Assembly (NCBI GenBank): GCA_021828545.1
Contig: JAJZEN010000079.1
Coordinates: 1 to 40,837, forward strand
Length of the DNA: 40,837 nt
Origin: Actinomycetes bacterium
Lineage (GTDB): Bacteria; Actinomycetota; Acidimicrobiia; Acidimicrobiales; RAAP-2
Reading direction: 5' to 3'
Shown here in pieces: positions 33,724 to 40,364 of the stretch; position 1 is the first letter of the stretch; the number at the start of each line of letters is the position of its first letter. A program made the position numbers and the translations under genes. Below the pieces are notes generated by a model that was not told the DNA's origin, did no database searches, and was given only the letters and a program-made list of their open reading frames with translations.

Positions 33724-36405
33724 CTACGCTCGCGCCAGTTGTCGTAACACGAAGTTGAGTACACCCCCGTGACGGTAGTAGTCGGCCTCGGTGGGGGTAT
33801 CGATGCGCAGGCGGACCTCGAAGTCCACGTGGTCGCCCCCGTCGCGCGCTGCGGTCACGGTGACGCGTGACACGCTCTCACCGCGATTGAGCGGATCAAG
33901 GCCCCGAATCGAGAACGTTTCGGTTCCGGTGAGTTGGTACGTCGCCGCAGACTCGCCGGGGAGGAATTGCAGGGGCAGGACCCCCATTCCGACCAGGTTG
34001 GACCGATGGATGCGTTCGAAACTCTCCACCAGTACGGCCCTGACGCCGAGCAGTTTCGTGCCCTTGGCCGCCCAGTCGCGACTCGATCCGCTGCCGTACT
34101 CCTTGCCCCCCAGGATCATCAAGGGAGTTCCCTGGGCCGCGTAGGCCATGGCGGCGTCGAAGATCGACATCTCCGTGCCCTCGGGCAACTTGATCGTGAC
34201 GCCGCCCTCGGTTCCTGGGGCGAGCTGATTGCGCAGACGGATGTTGGCGAAGGTGCCACGGACCATGACCTCGTGATTACCCCGACGGGTGCCGTAGGAA
34301 TTGAAGTCCCCCGGGGCGACGCCGCCGTCGGTCAAGTAGCGTCCGGCCGGGACGCTGGGTCGGATGTTGCCGGCGGGCGAGATGTGATCGGTGGTCACCG
34401 AATCGCCGAGTTTGGCGAGCACCCGAGCGTTCTCGATGTCGGTGACGGTGCCGGGTTCCATCGTCAGGCCCTCGAAGTACGGGGGGAGTTTCACGTAAGT
34501 GGAACGATCGTCCCAGGCGTACGTGACGGCGTTGGTGGTGGGAACTTCCTGCCACTTCTCGTCGCCACTGAAGGCACTGGCGTAGCGCTCCTCGAACATC
34601 TCGGGCGTGATTGATGCGCGTACCGCCGCCGCCACGTCGGCGTCGCTCGGCCACAGGTCCGAAAGGTACACCGGCACACCATCTCGGTCGACGCCCAGGG
34701 GCTCGCTCGAGAGGTCGATATCGATGGTGCCCGCGAGCGCGTAGGCCACGACGAGCGGCGGGGACGCCAAAAAGTTCTGCTTCACGTCGGGGTGGATGCG
34801 ACCTTCGAAGTTGCGGTTACCCGACAGAACCGAGACGACCGAGAGGTCGTGCTCATTGACCGCCTCAGAGACCCCTTCGAGGAGTGGTCCGGTGTTCCCG
34901 ATGCACGTGGTGCACCCGTACCCGGCGAGGTAGAAACCCAACGCGTCGAGCGGCCCCACCAGGTCAGCGCGCTCGAGGTAGTCCATCACCACGCGACTAC
35001 CCGGGGCCAGGGACGTCTTGACCCAGGGCTTGGTGCTCACGCCGCGGGCCACGGCGGCCCGGGCCACGAGTCCCGCGGCCACGAGGACCGAAGGATTCGA
35101 GGTGTTGGTGCACGAAGTGATAGCGGCCACGGTCACGTCGCCGTCACGTAGACGTTCCGCCGCCTCGATCCCCATGACCTCGCGTGGCTCGCGCCCCAGT
35201 GCGGTGCGAAACGCGCCGCGGGCCCCCGACAATGAGACGCGGTCCTGGGGACGCTTGGGTCCCGCGAGGCTCGGCTCGACGGTCGAAAGGTCGAGTTCGA
35301 CGTACTCCGAGTACGTGGGCTCGAGCGCGTCGGCGTCGTGCCAGATTCCTTGGGCTTTGGCGTACGCCTCGACCAGGGCCAGTTGTTCGGTGGGTCGGCC
35401 CGTGAAGGCCAGGTAGTCCAGGGTGACACGGTCGATGGGGAAGATCGCGCACGTCGCGCCGTATTCGGGGGACATGTTGCCGATGGTCGCCCGGGTCTCG
35501 AGCGAGAGTGATGCGACGCCGGGGCCGTAACCTTCGACGAATTTTCCTACCACGCCCTGTTTGCGCAGGAGTTCGGTGATGGTGAGGACGACATCGGTCG
35601 CGGTGACACCCTCCTTGGTGGCGCCCGAGAGACGTAGTCCGACGACGGGGGGGATGAGCATCGACGTGGGCTGACCCAGCATGCCGGCCTCCGCCTCGAT
35701 GCCGCCGACACCCCAGCCCAGCACGCCCAGTCCGTTGACCATCGTGGTGTGTGAGTCGGTGCCGACCACGGTGTCGAGGTAGGCGACCCCGTTGTTCTCG
35801 AACACCACTCGCGCGAGATGCTCCAGGTTGACCTGGTGACAGATTCCCATACCGGGTGGTACCACGCGGAACTGGTCGAAACTGCTCTGAGCCCACTTGA
35901 GGAAGGTGTAGCGCTCGATATTGCGGTCGTACTCGATGGCAACGTTCTGGTCGTAACTCTGCGCGGTGCCCGTACGTTCCAAGATGACCGAGTGGTCGAT
36001 CACGAGTTCGACGGGTACCAGGGGGTTGATCTTGTCGGGGTCGCCCCCGAGGGAGATGATCGCGTCGCGCATCGAGGCGAGATCGACCACGGCCGGGACT
36101 CCGGTGAGGTCTTGCATGAGAACGCGCTCGGGCGTGAAGGCGATCTCCTGGGCGTCGTCGCCCGCCGCCTCACCGTGACGCGTGGGCGCCTCGGACCATC
36201 GTGCCAGCGCCTCGATGTCCGCCGCGGAGACCTTGACGCCGTCCTCGTGACGCAAAAGATTCTCGAGGAGCACCTTGATGGAGTAGGGAAGTCGGTCAAT
36301 CGCGAACTGGCTGAGTCCACTCGCGCGCAGGGAGTAATACTGCAGCGTGCGACCGTTCACGTCCAGGGTGTCGAGGGCGTTGAAGGAGTTGAGAGAGGAG
36401 GTCAT
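33724..36405 (-). CDS. acnA: Aconitate hydratase A
   Basis: 893-residue aconitase of the IRP1/AcnA type, which interconverts citrate and isocitrate in the TCA cycle. Cluster cysteines are in [13 protein letters not shown] and [13 protein letters not shown]. Other landmarks: [76 protein letters not shown], and the C-terminal swivel domain with [25 protein letters not shown]. The ATG at 36405 has GGAGA upstream and fits the family start; the frame continues 30 codons upstream but overlaps the argS start region. Divergent from argS with a 79-nt gap. Confidence 0.97.
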
Positions 36406-36484
36406 GTCTCCATTCTGCCCGTTTTTTTCATCACCCGAGGATGTCCGACGCGACGCCGCGCGGGTCAGGTGTGAGAATGGGACG

Positions 36485-38200
36485 GTGACTTCCACCTACG
36501 ACCTTCTCCGGGACCGATTACGACGTGCCTTCGACGCCATCGACGAGGGGGCCGATCCGGTTCTGCGGATCTCGGAGCGCAGTGATTATCAGGTCAATGG
36601 CGTCATGGCGCTCGCCAAAGCACAGGGCGTCGCGCCTCGTGAGATGGCCGCGCGCGTGCTCGAACATCTCGAGATTGATGACCTCGCCGAAGTCGAAGTC
36701 GCGGGCCCGGGCTTCTTGAACCTGACTCTCACGGATTCGTTCTTGAACGCCCAGTTACGCGCTCTACTCGGCGATGATCGACTCGGGGTGGGCCTCGTCG
36801 AAAAACGGACCGTCGTGATCGACTACTCCGCGCCCAACGTGGCCAAGGAGATGCACGTCGGGCACCTACGCTCGACCGTGATCGGCGACTCCCTCGCACG
36901 GATGTACCGTTTCCAGGGGGACCGGGTTATCGCGCGTAATCACGTCGGTGACTGGGGTACGCCCTTTGGCATGCTCATCGAACACCTGGTGGATTTGGGC
37001 GAGGACGAGGCCGTGGCGTCGCTCTCGATCGGGGACCTGGACGGCTTCTACCGGGGGGCGCGCGCGAAGTTCGACGCCGACGAGGGCTTCAAGGAGCGCT
37101 CGCGATCGCGCGTGGTGGCACTTCAGGGCGGCGACCCCGAGACCCGTCGACTCTGGAGGATGTTGGTCGACGAGTCCGTGAAGTATTTTGCCGAGGTCTA
37201 CGCGGCCCTCGACGTGACGCTCACGCCCGAGGACGTGACGGGCGAGTCGTACTACAACGACATGCTCGAGGCGGTCGTGCGCGACCTCGACACCGCGGGG
37301 CTACTCGTCGAAAGCGGGGGCGCCCTGTGTGTTTTCCCCGAGGGTTTCGTAAATCGCGAGGGCGAACCGTTGCCCCTCATCGTGCGAAAGAGCGACGAGG
37401 GTTTTGGTTACGCCGCCACCGACCTCGCGGCCGTGCGTGACCGCGTCGACCACCTGCACGCCGACGAGATCCTTTACGTCGTCGGCGCCCCTCAGGGCCA
37501 GCACTTCGACATGGTTTTCGCCGTCGCGCGCGCGGCGGGGTGGCTCCTTGATTCGGTGCGATGCGTGCACGTGGCTTTCGGGAACGTGCTGGGTCCCGAC
37601 CGCAAGATGTTCGCGTCGCGCTCCGGAGAGACGATCAAACTCATCGATCTGCTCGATGAGGCGCGCGAGCGCGCGCTGAGCGCCTTACGTCAGCGTTCAC
37701 TCGACGTCGCGCCCGAAGCGCGAGAGCGCTTGGCGACCCAGATTGCGCGCGCGGCCATCAAGTACGCGGACCTCTCCACGGATCGCCAGCGTGACTACGT
37801 CTTCGATCTCGATCGCATGATCGCCTTCGAGGGCGACACCGGCCCGTATTTGCAGTACGCCCACGCGCGGCTGCGCTCGATCTTTCGTCGCCTCGACGCA
37901 CCGTGGGATGGCGCGGACGTGACGTTCGACCTCGCCGAGAGTGCCGAGCGCACGCTCGCCCTGGGACTGTTGCACTTCCCCGAGGCCCTCGACGGCGCGC
38001 TCGCCACCCTTCAGCCCCATCGCCTCAGCGGTTATCTCTTCGACCTGGCGCAACGGTTCACCACGTTTTATGAGGCGTGCCCGGTTCTCTCGGCGCCTGA
38101 GCCCACGCGTACCCAACGCTTGGCGTTGTGTGAGCTGTGCGCGCGCACGCTGTCCCTCGGGCTCTCGTTGCTCGGGATCGAGGCGCCCGACCAGATGTAG
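36485..38200 (+). CDS. argS: Arginyl-tRNA synthetase
   Basis: 571-residue class I synthetase. The N-terminal Add-1 domain recognises the tRNA D-loop. The HIGH motif appears as [23 protein letters not shown] (about residues 117-140), followed by [18 protein letters not shown]. The KMSKS-like segment is [19 protein letters not shown]. The C-terminal DALR anticodon-binding domain begins after [28 protein letters not shown] at 36485 is the start that matches the family; the longer frame runs into the acnA coding region. Confidence 0.96.
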
Positions 38201-38237
38201 GGGCGCCACCGCGAGAAGGATGCTTCGCGCGCGTGCA

Positions 38238-38346
38238 CTATGGTCGAGGGTGCCTCGGTGCAGCGAAGTTGGTGAGACTCCAACGCTGTCCCGCAACTGT
38301 AAGCGGACGTGTCGTCCGCGTAGCCAGGTCGCCTGCGTCGAGGAGA
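38238..38346 (+). promoter_or_regulatory. Cobalamin riboswitch
   Basis: An aptamer that binds adenosyl- or other cobalamins. The conserved core is clear: GAAGTTGGTGAGACTCC, then GCTGTCCCGCAACTGTAAGC (38285-38304), and the B12 box AGCCAGGTCGCCTGC (38322-38336), in the order and spacing of the family. It lies 175-280 nt upstream of the btuCD-type genes, and the first AGGAG after it starts at 38341, so translational control is possible. High B12 would reduce expression of the importer. Confidence 0.93.
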
Positions 38347-38348
38347 TT

Positions 38349-38414
38349 GTGAAGACAGCTCTCGCGGCACGGGGCGGTCGTTCGGATACCCATCCGTCGT
38401 CGCGACTGCTGTGA
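38349..38414 (+). CDS. Candidate leader micro-ORF 1 after the riboswitch
   Basis: A 21-codon frame (GTG start, TGA stop) reads MKTALAARGGRSDTHPSSRLL. It begins 4 nt after an AGGAG that directly follows the riboswitch. The short spacing makes translation doubtful. No similarity recognised. If translated, it could couple ribosome passage to the downstream hairpin at 38395-38421. Confidence 0.25.
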   Translation: MKTALAARGGRSDTHPSSRLL

Positions 38415-38421
38415 GACGACG
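38395..38421 (+). promoter_or_regulatory. Hairpin before the leader peptide ribosome site
   Basis: CGTCGTC (38395-38401) pairs perfectly with GACGACG (38415-38421), 13-nt loop. The Shine-Dalgarno AGGAGA (38425-38430) begins 3 nt downstream, so the stem could affect access to it. Candidate part of the riboswitch expression platform. Confidence 0.4.
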
Positions 38422-38435
38422 ACGAGGAGATACCC

Positions 38436-38516
38436 ATGGGTAGCCAGTGGCGCGCTGAACCGGTGCTCTCCGTGCTCGTGCTCGAGGTCGCGGCGGACCC
38501 GCACGTCGAAAGATAG
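38436..38516 (+). CDS. Candidate leader micro-ORF 2 before btuC
   Basis: A 26-codon frame, MGSQWRAEPVLSVLVLEVAA then DPHVER, with a textbook ribosome site (AGGAGA, 5 nt spacing) and ATG start. It ends 7 nt before the btuC GTG, which itself lacks a strong site, so btuC translation may depend on termination of this peptide. The ATG is in the centre of a perfect 12-bp palindrome, TACCCATGGGTA (38431-38442). No family recognised. Confidence 0.45.
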   Translation: MGSQWRAEPVLSVLVLEVAADPHVER

Positions 38517-38523
38517 TCGCGAC

Positions 38524-39564
38524 GTGGCGGCCAACCCACCCAGTCCTCGACGATTCCTCGTCGTCGCGATCGCGACGGTGGTGGTGCTCGTCATCGCCGT
38601 GCTCTGTGGACTGGTGATCGGACCGACGTCGATCTCGACGTGGCACATCGTGGGCAATGCCCTGAGTCACGTGGGCGTTGGTCACTCGACCTTGACGCCC
38701 CTGCAATCGCTCATCATTTGGCAGGTGCGCGCGCCACGCATGGTCCTGGGTCTGGTGGCGGGCGCGATGTTGGCCGTCGCCGGAAGTACCTTCCAGGGTG
38801 TCTTTCGCAACCCTCTCGCTGATCCCTATCTGCTCGGCGTCGCTGCGGGCGCGGGCCTGGGGGCAACGCTCGCCATCGTCAACATTGGTGGCGGCAACGC
38901 CGTGCCGACGTGGACCCCCTTGCTCGCGTTCGTTGGAGCGATGGTCTCGGTGGCCCTGACGTGGCTGATCGGTGGGCGCAGTCTACGTTCGACACCCACC
39001 ACCTTGGTCCTGGCCGGGGTCGCGGTGTCGGCCTTGTTCACCAGCGCCCAGACGTATCTGCAACAAGAATCTTCGAGCCAGTCCATCGCGCGGGTCTACA
39101 TCTGGTTGCTGGGATCGCTCGCCAGCGCTAGCTGGTCGTCGATCGTTCTGATCGTCCCCTACGTCGCGGTGTGCGTGGCGGTCTGCGTCTTGGCGGGTCG
39201 GGCCCTGGACGTGATGAGCGTGGGAGATGACGAAGCACGCTCCCTGGGCCTCTCGGTGCGTACCTTGCGCCTCGTGGTCGTGACGGCAGCGTCCCTGGGT
39301 ACTGCGGCCGTCGTCTCGGCGGTGGGTCTGATCGGTTTCGTCGGGATCATCGTGCCACACATAATTCGACTGCTGGTGGGAACGTCGTATCGCAGGATCC
39401 TTCCCCTCAGCGTGGTCTTCGGGGCGGCCTTCCTCGTCTTGTGCGACACGGTGGCTCGCACGGTGATCGCCCCGTCGGAATTGCCGCTCGGCGTGGTGAC
39501 TGCGGTCATCGGGGCGCCCGTGTTCGTGGTGATCTTGAGCGCCCGACGTCTGGGGACGTCGTGA
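38524..39564 (+). CDS. btuC: BtuC/FecCD-type ABC importer permease
   Basis: 346-residue permease with about ten membrane helices. The conserved motifs are RAPRMVLGLVAGAMLAVAGSTFQGVFRNPLADPYLLGVAAGAGLGA near the N-terminus and VSAVGLIGFVGIIVPHIIRLLVGTSYRRILPLS near the C-terminus, which contacts the ATPase. The family imports B12, heme or siderophores; the riboswitch upstream points to B12. Start GTG at 38524; it overlaps the ATPase start by 4 nt. No BtuF-type binding protein is in the visible part of the locus. Confidence 0.92.
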   Translation: MAANPPSPRRFLVVAIATVVVLVIAVLCGLVIGPTSISTWHIVGNALSHVGVGHSTLTPLQSLIIWQVRAPRMVLGLVAGAMLAVAGSTFQGVFRNPLADPYLLGVAAGAGLGATLAIVNIGGGNAVPTWTPLLAFVGAMVSVALTWLIGGRSLRSTPTTLVLAGVAVSALFTSAQTYLQQESSSQSIARVYIWLLGSLASASWSSIVLIVPYVAVCVAVCVLAGRALDVMSVGDDEARSLGLSVRTLRLVVVTAASLGTAAVVSAVGLIGFVGIIVPHIIRLLVGTSYRRILPLSVVFGAAFLVLCDTVARTVIAPSELPLGVVTAVIGAPVFVVILSARRLGTS

Positions 39565-40364
39565 ACATGGTGCACCTCGAGCACGTGTCGGTGCGCGCCG
39601 GTGCCGCAACACTGGTCGACGACGTGAGCATCGACGTGACCGCGGGGTCCTGGTGCACCATCATCGGTCCTAATGGCGCGGGTAAAACTACCTTGGTGTC
39701 CGTGATGGCGGGTTTGCGCCCGGTCGCGCACGGAGTGGTGCGCGTCGACGACTGTCACCTCGCCGAGTTGAGCGAACGAGAGCGCGCACGTTTGATCGCG
39801 TACGTACCCCAACACCCTGAGGTTCCCGTCGGTATGACCGTAGAGGACTACGTGGGACTCGGGCGCGTCGCGTTCCACGGCGTGTTACGCGCACCGTCGG
39901 CGCGTGATCGTGACGTCGTGGCGGGAGTGCTGGAGCGACTCGATCTCGTGACGTTTCGTCGACGTGATGCGACGTCGCTGTCGGGCGGCGAACGTCAGCG
40001 AATGGTGCTCGCGCGCGCCCTCGTCCAGTCCACCAAGGTGGTGATCCTGGATGAGCCGATCACCGGTCTCGATGTCCGTCACCAGATAGACATACTCGAG
40101 TTACTCAAGACCGAGGTCGTACAGTGTGGACTCACCGTGATCGCGACGTTGCACGATCTCACCCTGGCCGGCACGTTCGCCGATCGGCTCATATTGCTCT
40201 CGCGAGGCGCGGTCGCCAAGGACGGATCGGCCTACGACGTGATCCGCTCCCGGGAACTCGCGTCGAGTTACGGAATGACGTTGCGGGTGGTGAACGTCGA
40301 CGGCAGCGACGTGGTGGTACCGGTGCGTGGTGACGGCGCTGCGCTCGGCGACGACCTCGCGTGA
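39561..40364 (+). CDS. btuD: BtuD-type ABC importer ATPase
   Basis: 267-residue ATPase of the FepC/BtuD group. Walker A is IIGPNGAGKTT, the Q-loop is YVPQHPEVPVGMTVEDYV, the signature is LSGGERQRMVLARAL, Walker B is VVILDEPITGLD and the switch histidine is in ATLHDL. Start GTG at 39561 overlaps the permease stop; an ATG at 39567 is also possible. Works with the permease to import cobalamin, as inferred from the riboswitch. Confidence 0.92.
   Translation: MNMVHLEHVSVRAGAATLVDDVSIDVTAGSWCTIIGPNGAGKTTLVSVMAGLRPVAHGVVRVDDCHLAELSERERARLIAYVPQHPEVPVGMTVEDYVGLGRVAFHGVLRAPSARDRDVVAGVLERLDLVTFRRRDATSLSGGERQRMVLARALVQSTKVVILDEPITGLDVRHQIDILELLKTEVVQCGLTVIATLHDLTLAGTFADRLILLSRGAVAKDGSAYDVIRSRELASSYGMTLRVVNVDGSDVVVPVRGDGAALGDDLA

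Follow-up and report, generated by a model that had tools for sequence, protein, structure and literature searches.

Towards its end the window, i.e., the whole stretch of 40,837 nucleotides that was analysed, carries argS, a cobalamin riboswitch, two short reading frames, a btuC-like permease gene, a btuD-like ATPase gene and the start of a last frame, which we take from its sequence to be pyk (Table 1). The genome to which it belongs (G000) comprises 1.96 Mb in 167 contigs, is 91% complete and has a contamination estimate of 0.1. The parts of a BtuFCD transporter have been found through Pfam as a FecCD permease, an ABC ATPase (ABC_tran) and a Peripla_BP_2 binding protein, and the NCBIfam BtuC and BtuF models match with scores below their cut-offs; the names btuC, btuD and btuF and the predicted B12 substrate are assigned from the Pfam families, the riboswitch and the cob-gene context. 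The btuC of the window is of full length and shows 78–82% identity to those of eight relatives that carry the same native locus.

An earlier note on this DNA had described two short frames between the aptamer and btuC, each preceded by CGAGGAGAT; both frames do translate as it proposed, and CGAGGAGAT occurs exactly twice in the window, at 38339 and 38423, both on the + strand. The note was also right that btuC has no strong ribosome site and starts 7 nt after the second frame: by eye, no AGGAG-like site exists in 38500–38526, and the GTG at 38524, following the TAG that ends at 38516, is the first ATG, GTG or TTG of the open frame, which offers no alternative start upstream. Direct masking of a btuC ribosome site was discarded, no such site having been seen. 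The btuF stop and the btuC start are about 2–22 nt apart in the eight relatives, where a GGAAG overlying the stop is the best site seen, and because of this close spacing and these poor sites, the coupling of btuC to the preceding frame is probably an inherited state.

Table 1. Coordinates of genes and leader features at the locus (positions in the window)
Feature	Position	Strand	Remark
argS	36347..38200	+	PF00750; upstream neighbour marking the native locus; synteny with relatives
Cobalamin riboswitch aptamer, compact, fused P1-P3 arm	38231..38350	+	Rfam RF00174
Putative -10 promoter element TATGGT	38239..38244	+	Just 5' of aptamer; by-eye motif
5' strand of fused P1-P3 helix, CCTCGGTGCAG	38253..38263	+	11-bp duplex with 38333-38343
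3' strand of P1-P3 helix, CTGCGTCGAGG	38333..38343	+	Overlaps GAGGAG 38340-38345 (first ribosome site of the earlier note)
Micro-ORF 1, 21 codons	38349..38414	+	GTG 38349 to TGA 38414; judged not a gene
Conserved hairpin GCUC-loop-GGGC	38358..38375	+	AGCTC with GAGC or GGGC in 56/57 leaders
Local hairpin CGGAU-ACCC-AUCCG, possible anti-sequestor	38383..38396	+	Overlaps sequestor 5' arm
Sequestor 5' arm GGATACCCAT	38384..38393	+	Pairs with 38436-38445, 9/10 bp
Sequestor inner stem, 5' strand	38395..38402	+	8 bp with 38417-38424
Sequestor inner stem, 3' strand	38417..38424	+	8 bp with 38395-38402
AGGAG ribosome site of scar frame (ancestral btuF site)	38425..38429	+	6 nt before ATG
Micro-ORF 2, proposed btuF scar, 26 codons	38436..38516	+	ATG 38436 to TAG 38516
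Sequestor 3' arm ATGGGTAGCC	38436..38445	+	Includes start codon; pairs with 38384-38393
btuC-like permease (FecCD family), proposed coupled target	38524..39564	+	PF01032, 310.9 bits
btuD-like ATPase	39567..40364	+	PF00005; synteny argS-btuF-btuC-btuD-pyk in relatives
pyk, start only	40493 to window end

The aptamer and the first short frame

The presence of a cobalamin riboswitch upstream of btuC, recognised in the earlier note, has been confirmed by an RF00174 (Cobalamin) match of 36 bits, above the gathering score of 31.5 and the sole match of the window at gathering thresholds. Of the 99 genomes searched in the genus, the window's own included, 82 gave a match to the same family; near relatives also exist in another collection, under names such as Acidimicrobiaceae bacterium and some palsa or fen isolate names. 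The aptamer match spans 120 nt and has only a short variable stem in place of the P8–P12 extension, which sets it apart from the class I B12 riboswitch as outlined in PMC11260477. Longer and much stronger cobalamin riboswitch matches were seen elsewhere in the search at L063 (G015:C171:1594-1807, 94 bits) and L064 (G011:C215:4546-4760, 88 bits). Directly before the aptamer, a TANNNT box was present in 28 of 28 upstream sequences read by eye (30 rows were taken and 2 were not located by the script), as TAAGGT in many of them and TATGGT in the window. This box is a putative -10 promoter element, and the transcript probably starts at the aptamer edge.

Leaders were compared in a set of 57, made up of the window, its own second copy on contig C60 and 55 others; 58 distinct leaders were found, one of which (L031) was too diverged to parse, and L072 and L073 were added by a narrower pattern. 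The fused P1–P3 helix comprises 11 pairs in the window (−16.6 kcal/mol), and across 51 distinct arm pairs (L027 and L079 skipped) the mean pairing of each leader's own arms was stronger than that of swapped arms, with 0 of 5000 permutations as strong. L5 is nearly invariant in these leaders, themselves picked by an L5 pattern; as to an L13 partner for it, no convincing one was recognised by eye, the UCGAGG loop of the GCUC/GAGC hairpin having no perfect match. That hairpin appears in a compensated version, AACCC with GGGT, in one of the 57 leaders.

The first short frame is not regarded as a gene, since its GAGGAG overlaps the P1–P3 helix and a closed frame of eight or more codons before the main start is found in only four of the 57 leaders, the window among them; in the remaining leaders, the frames at this place are shorter, overrun the main start or are missing. 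A GAGGAG in the homologous box is carried by 40 of the 57, a count that leaves out L072 and L073, whose GAGGAG is a later one. Frame 1 as a translated leader was thus rejected, being unconserved in relatives and having a supposed SD that overlaps an aptamer helix.

The second frame and its counterparts in relatives

Homology of the leaders runs past the aptamer through the platform, and in an alignment of 30 (the window, its own C60 copy, 27 relatives of the same genus and the diverged L031) the ATG of micro-ORF 2 is in register with the start codon of the gene that comes next in the relatives, with the window's AGGAG aligned to the AAGGAG before their btuF start. Of these relatives, 26 have a recognisable btuF beginning at the homologous start, 25 of them complete and one (L021) without a stop; in the 27th, L015, the contig ends after nine codons. 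Among the 29 readable starts, the window has 26 codons, and its own C60 copy and 25 relatives have complete BtuF-like frames of 301–314 aa. The L021 frame, the btuF of G012, has no stop for 489 codons; the btuC of the same genome (G012:C3:25413-26247) and one btuF of G067 (G067:C22:58344-59161) each lie in two pieces in different frames, a possible frameshift or assembly error.

The spacer between riboswitch and btuC points in the same direction, measuring 173 nt in the window vs 924–1120 nt in all 81 other pairs of the genus. Such pairs, on one contig and strand, exist for 82 of 90 riboswitch places, the window's included; the other 8 have no btuC on the contig and were not counted. Of the 81 pairs, 14 are from a second, more distant system, and where a riboswitch or btuC match is incomplete the spacer is an approximate value. 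This second system occurs in part of the genus (L182–L196, in G024, G080, G030, G028, G089 and others), its btuF being 38–42% and its btuC about 50–55% identical, with weaker riboswitch scores of 26–35 bits; cobO follows in 11 of the 14 stretches L183–L196, which did not match the leader pattern and stand outside the leader counts.

Synteny adds to this picture. Eight relatives (G078, G009, G031, G025, G024, G109, G083 and G080) share the arrangement argS–btuF–btuC–btuD–pyk, in which the riboswitch precedes btuF, and the gene order of the window is theirs minus btuF; a ninth stretch, in G075, has no argS upstream. Because the same start opens btuF in the relatives and all 81 pairs are spaced by 924–1120 nt, frame 2 most likely represents a scar left when btuF was deleted. 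The tail of the frame has been compared with the 3' ends of the relatives' btuF genes: it scored 21 against that of L093/G078 (maximum of 1000 shuffles, 16) and 19 against that of G109 (shuffle maximum 14, 0/1000); for G009, one of 1000 shuffles reached the score, and for the other five relatives 108, 350, 674, 75 and 21 of 1000 mononucleotide shuffles did. The match covers a short stretch of about 36 nt, and no confident alignment could be made for the middle of the scar; G078 and G009 have the same stop codon and, before btuC, the same gap of 7 nt. What was retained of btuF is most likely the start codon, about ten last codons and the stop. An alignment of the proteins further suggests that the retained tail starts at the S-[RQ]-W motif near the BtuF C-terminus, in a scar whose middle is too changed to prove it. 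The deletion is known from one genome, with no second case among the genomes searched.

The earlier note had named a lack of conservation of the leader frames in relatives as a refutation of its reading, and this outcome goes against its leader-peptide part, a closed first frame of eight or more codons existing in four of 57 leaders and the start of the second frame opening btuF instead. Its proposal of leader-peptide control survives in part: the platform does target the frame 2 start and control through an upstream frame is the best reading, but two evolved leader peptides are unsupported.

The sequestor and the palindromic start codon

In the relatives, an upstream arm (commonest form CGGATATCCATCCG) pairs with GATATCC between the ribosome site and the start codon, enclosing an inner stem CCGTCG/CGACGG. 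The two arms vary jointly, as GGATGTC/GACATCC in L084 and L113, GGATGCC/GGCATCT in L024 and L025, GGATCTC/GAGATCC in L072 and L073, ATGTTGA/TCAACAT in L028 and a 9-pair arm in L082. Permutation of the arms over 36 to 46 distinct pairs gave a mean duplex energy of −12.4 to −12.9 kcal/mol for a leader's own arms and −10.0 to −10.5 for swapped ones (0/5000), and for the inner stem 31 of 5000 permutations over 13 distinct arm pairs, both figures, like that for the P1–P3 arms, being uncorrected for the relatedness of the leaders. Pairing of the arms is weak (−9.4 to −10.8) in L014, L023, L047, L007, L029, L108 and L201. The conserved platform thus appears to target the start of frame 2, i.e., the btuF start of the relatives, and not that of btuC. 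A local hairpin CGGAU-nnnn-AUCCG, which shares the upstream arm and whose flanks CGGA...TCCG are found in 53 of 55 leaders (the exceptions being L014 and L044), could be an alternative open state.

The window differs from this arrangement. Its arms pair with −4.3 kcal/mol on the ancestral span and with −13.1 kcal/mol when 10 nt past the ATG are included, and only three of the 57 leaders (the window, L030 and L028) gain over 0.5 kcal/mol when bases beyond the start codon are added. GGATACCCAT is 90% complementary to ATGGGTAGCC, which comprises the start codon and runs into the following codons, and the direct repeat GATACCCAT lies at 38385 and 38429; neither had appeared in the earlier note. 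Two elements that it did report are present: the 7-bp hairpin, as 38395-38401/38415-38421 or with 8 bp as 38395-38402/38417-38424, and the perfect palindrome around the second ATG, TACCCATGGGTA, of 12 nt (38431–38442), which is the sole CATG-centred one among the 26 palindromes of that kind in the window. The minimum free energy (MFE) fold of 38345–38460 lies no lower than those of shuffles (z −0.01) and lacks the sequestor, which is present in the centroid; the C60 leader reaches z −1.73, with 11 of 200 shuffles folding as well. Folding alone is uninformative for the window and moderately supportive for C60.

These comparisons indicate that the old pairing has collapsed and that the start codon and the bases that follow it now provide the partner strand. 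The palindrome around the start codon is thus most readily explained as a by-product of the old repeat GATACCCAT, which occurs twice, together with a new 3' arm within the scar. Selection for the new arm is not proven by this, because 243 of 20000 random 10-mers (1.2%) pair as well as that of the window.

Two B12 operons and the proposed mechanism

The genome's one further riboswitch lies on contig C60 and is followed by btuF (304 aa), cobO, cobU, cobS, cobC and a bluB–cobT fusion; its identity to the window copy is 82%. The C60 protein is the only Peripla_BP_2 match of the genome at E 0.001, and among FecCD matches the btuC of the window alone exceeds the cut-off, a weak one on C76 falling short of it. 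The C60 cob operon is devoid of btuCD, and its counterpart in G017, G020 and G035 runs btuF–btuC–btuD–cobO–cobU–cobS–cobC–bluBcobT with pyk further on. The operon continues at L092:10105-13369, where the frames, judged by eye, are presumably cobQ-, cbiB/cobD- and aminotransferase-like, followed by an ABC exporter pair.

Trees of 31 genomes (the best BtuF loci and the native-locus relatives) among the 87 with a BtuF match placed the BtuC of G000 with the native-locus relatives (100/98 for the nine) and its BtuF with G017, G062, G106, G020 and G035 (98/95). Forced regrouping was rejected both for BtuF into the native group (p-AU 0.0015), a result by which a plain move of the native btuF to C60 was rejected, and for BtuC into the G017 group (p-AU 0.00126), on trees in which the C60 BtuF branch is long (0.61) and with groups named after the trees had been seen. 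The tetranucleotide distance of C60 to the two halves of the window (0.043 and 0.063) is smaller than that between the halves (0.07) and than that of C60 to stretches of 12 other genomes (at least 0.093); C60 as a stray contig is unsupported by this composition. The arrangement suggests two B12 operons in one genome with reciprocal loss, each having lost what the other kept. Another copy could lie in the missing part of the genome.

The best explanation as a whole, which we regard as quite probable, is that frame 2 is a btuF deletion scar gated by the riboswitch and that btuC is reached from it by coupling. According to this proposal, a translational cobalamin riboswitch would first have masked the btuF start in a btuF–btuC–btuD operon between argS and pyk, and a deletion that spared only the start codon, the last codons and the stop of btuF would have left the 26-codon frame. 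Ribosomes would still enter at the AGGAG and ATG of the scar, an entry that the sequestor hairpin can close, and the 3' arm of this hairpin would have shifted from its place immediately 5' of the ATG so that it now spans this codon and the next 7 nt, giving rise to the palindrome. As in known B12 riboswitches, the ligand would turn expression off: B12 would stabilise the closed sequestor over the scar start, and in its absence the 26 codons would be translated up to the stop, with termination and reinitiation across 7 nt giving the restart at btuC, which would thus depend on the scar. Comparison with relatives supports the homology of start and tail, the synteny, the loss of btuF, the covariation of the sequestor and P1–P3 arms and the presence of BtuF in the second operon. 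On balance, we also lean cautiously towards the fuller history of a relay caught at birth. In it, deletion would have spared only the start codon and tail of the first target gene, ribosomes bound for btuC would have come to enter at this scar, and a sequestor would have evolved anew inside it, around the start codon; BtuF would then be supplied by an operon from another lineage that had itself lost btuCD, so that two operons with reciprocal defects, each with a B12 riboswitch of its own, would together provide one working transporter.

A rather improbable alternative is that the leader is decaying, i.e., that with btuF gone the platform has lost its regulatory role and a weak site serves for independent translation of btuC. 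The fall of the ancestral pairing to −4.3 kcal/mol, an MFE fold of the platform no better than shuffles and the divergence of the scar tail agree with decay, but a replacement arm of 9/10 bp with an 8-bp inner stem is present, the AGGAG, its spacing and a frame open to 7 nt before btuC have all been kept, and btuC is of full length with the identity to the eight native-locus relatives given above. It is very unlikely that frames 2 and 1 are evolved regulatory leader peptides in which codons or peptide matter: that both follow CGAGGAGAT, found nowhere else in the window, and that frame 2 is open would fit such peptides, yet the SD of frame 1 overlaps P1–P3 and its closed form is rare among the leaders, in relatives the start of frame 2 serves btuF, and none of the 81 other genus pairs has so short a spacer before btuC.

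We give hardly any credence to the deletion being an assembly or binning artefact, produced by two riboswitch copies in one genome with C60 as a stray. The number of contigs (167), the 91% completeness, the two riboswitch copies of 82% identity and the lack of the same deletion in a second genome among those searched could be read in its favour. Against it, such identity would be low for a misjoin, the scar end resembles the btuF tails of the native-locus relatives, the tetranucleotide profile of C60 is nearer to the window halves than these are to each other, and contamination is estimated at 0.1.

Riboswitch-controlled upstream frames are now coming to light in bacteria. In the present case, 55 distinct leaders from relatives make the ancestral platform readable, and a plausible origin can be proposed, namely the deletion of a first cistron that keeps start and stop. 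A caution also follows, in that a short frame downstream of a riboswitch could be the scar of a gene instead of an evolved leader peptide, and a covariation-supported sequestor is now given for this group of B12 riboswitches. Among the titles and abstract openings listed from the literature searched, no description of a riboswitch upstream frame as the scar of a deleted gene was found, which is no proof of absence, and one search of the same literature for cobalamin riboswitch with Acidimicrob gave no paper. The leader resembles the RF00174 family in its score over the cut-off, its B12 box and its position before B12 uptake genes; the platform of the genus is a two-part sequestor directly before btuF, and in this genome its target is the scar frame.

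Another case of a translational platform controlling a small upstream frame is the Mbox of pe20 in M. tuberculosis, with the uORF rv1805A; this riboswitch senses Mg2+ and rv1805A is reported to be highly conserved, unlike frame 2 here (PMC12810186). The closest precedent found is the B12 riboswitch of ppe2 in M. tuberculosis, which also has a compact aptamer with a fused P1–P3 arm, and in which an anti-TIR stem masks the start region of the short upstream frame uPPE2 (Kipkorir et al. 2024, PMC11260477). The ppe2 gene lacks an SD and has been shown by experiment to depend on the translation of uPPE2, mainly by termination-reinitiation; as to its origin, the idea of an invading ppe gene is offered by the authors as speculation (PMC11260477). 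As with uPPE2, an upstream arm would mask the start of an upstream frame, here by covariation and pairing only, and btuC, like ppe2, has no SD-like site of its own by eye in the span inspected. The two cases differ in that the relay of ppe2 is experimental and that of btuC would follow from the comparisons made here, in the geometry of stop and start (an AUGA overlap in ppe2, a 7-nt gap here) and in their likely origin, the upstream frame of the window resembling a remnant of the operon's first gene after its deletion.
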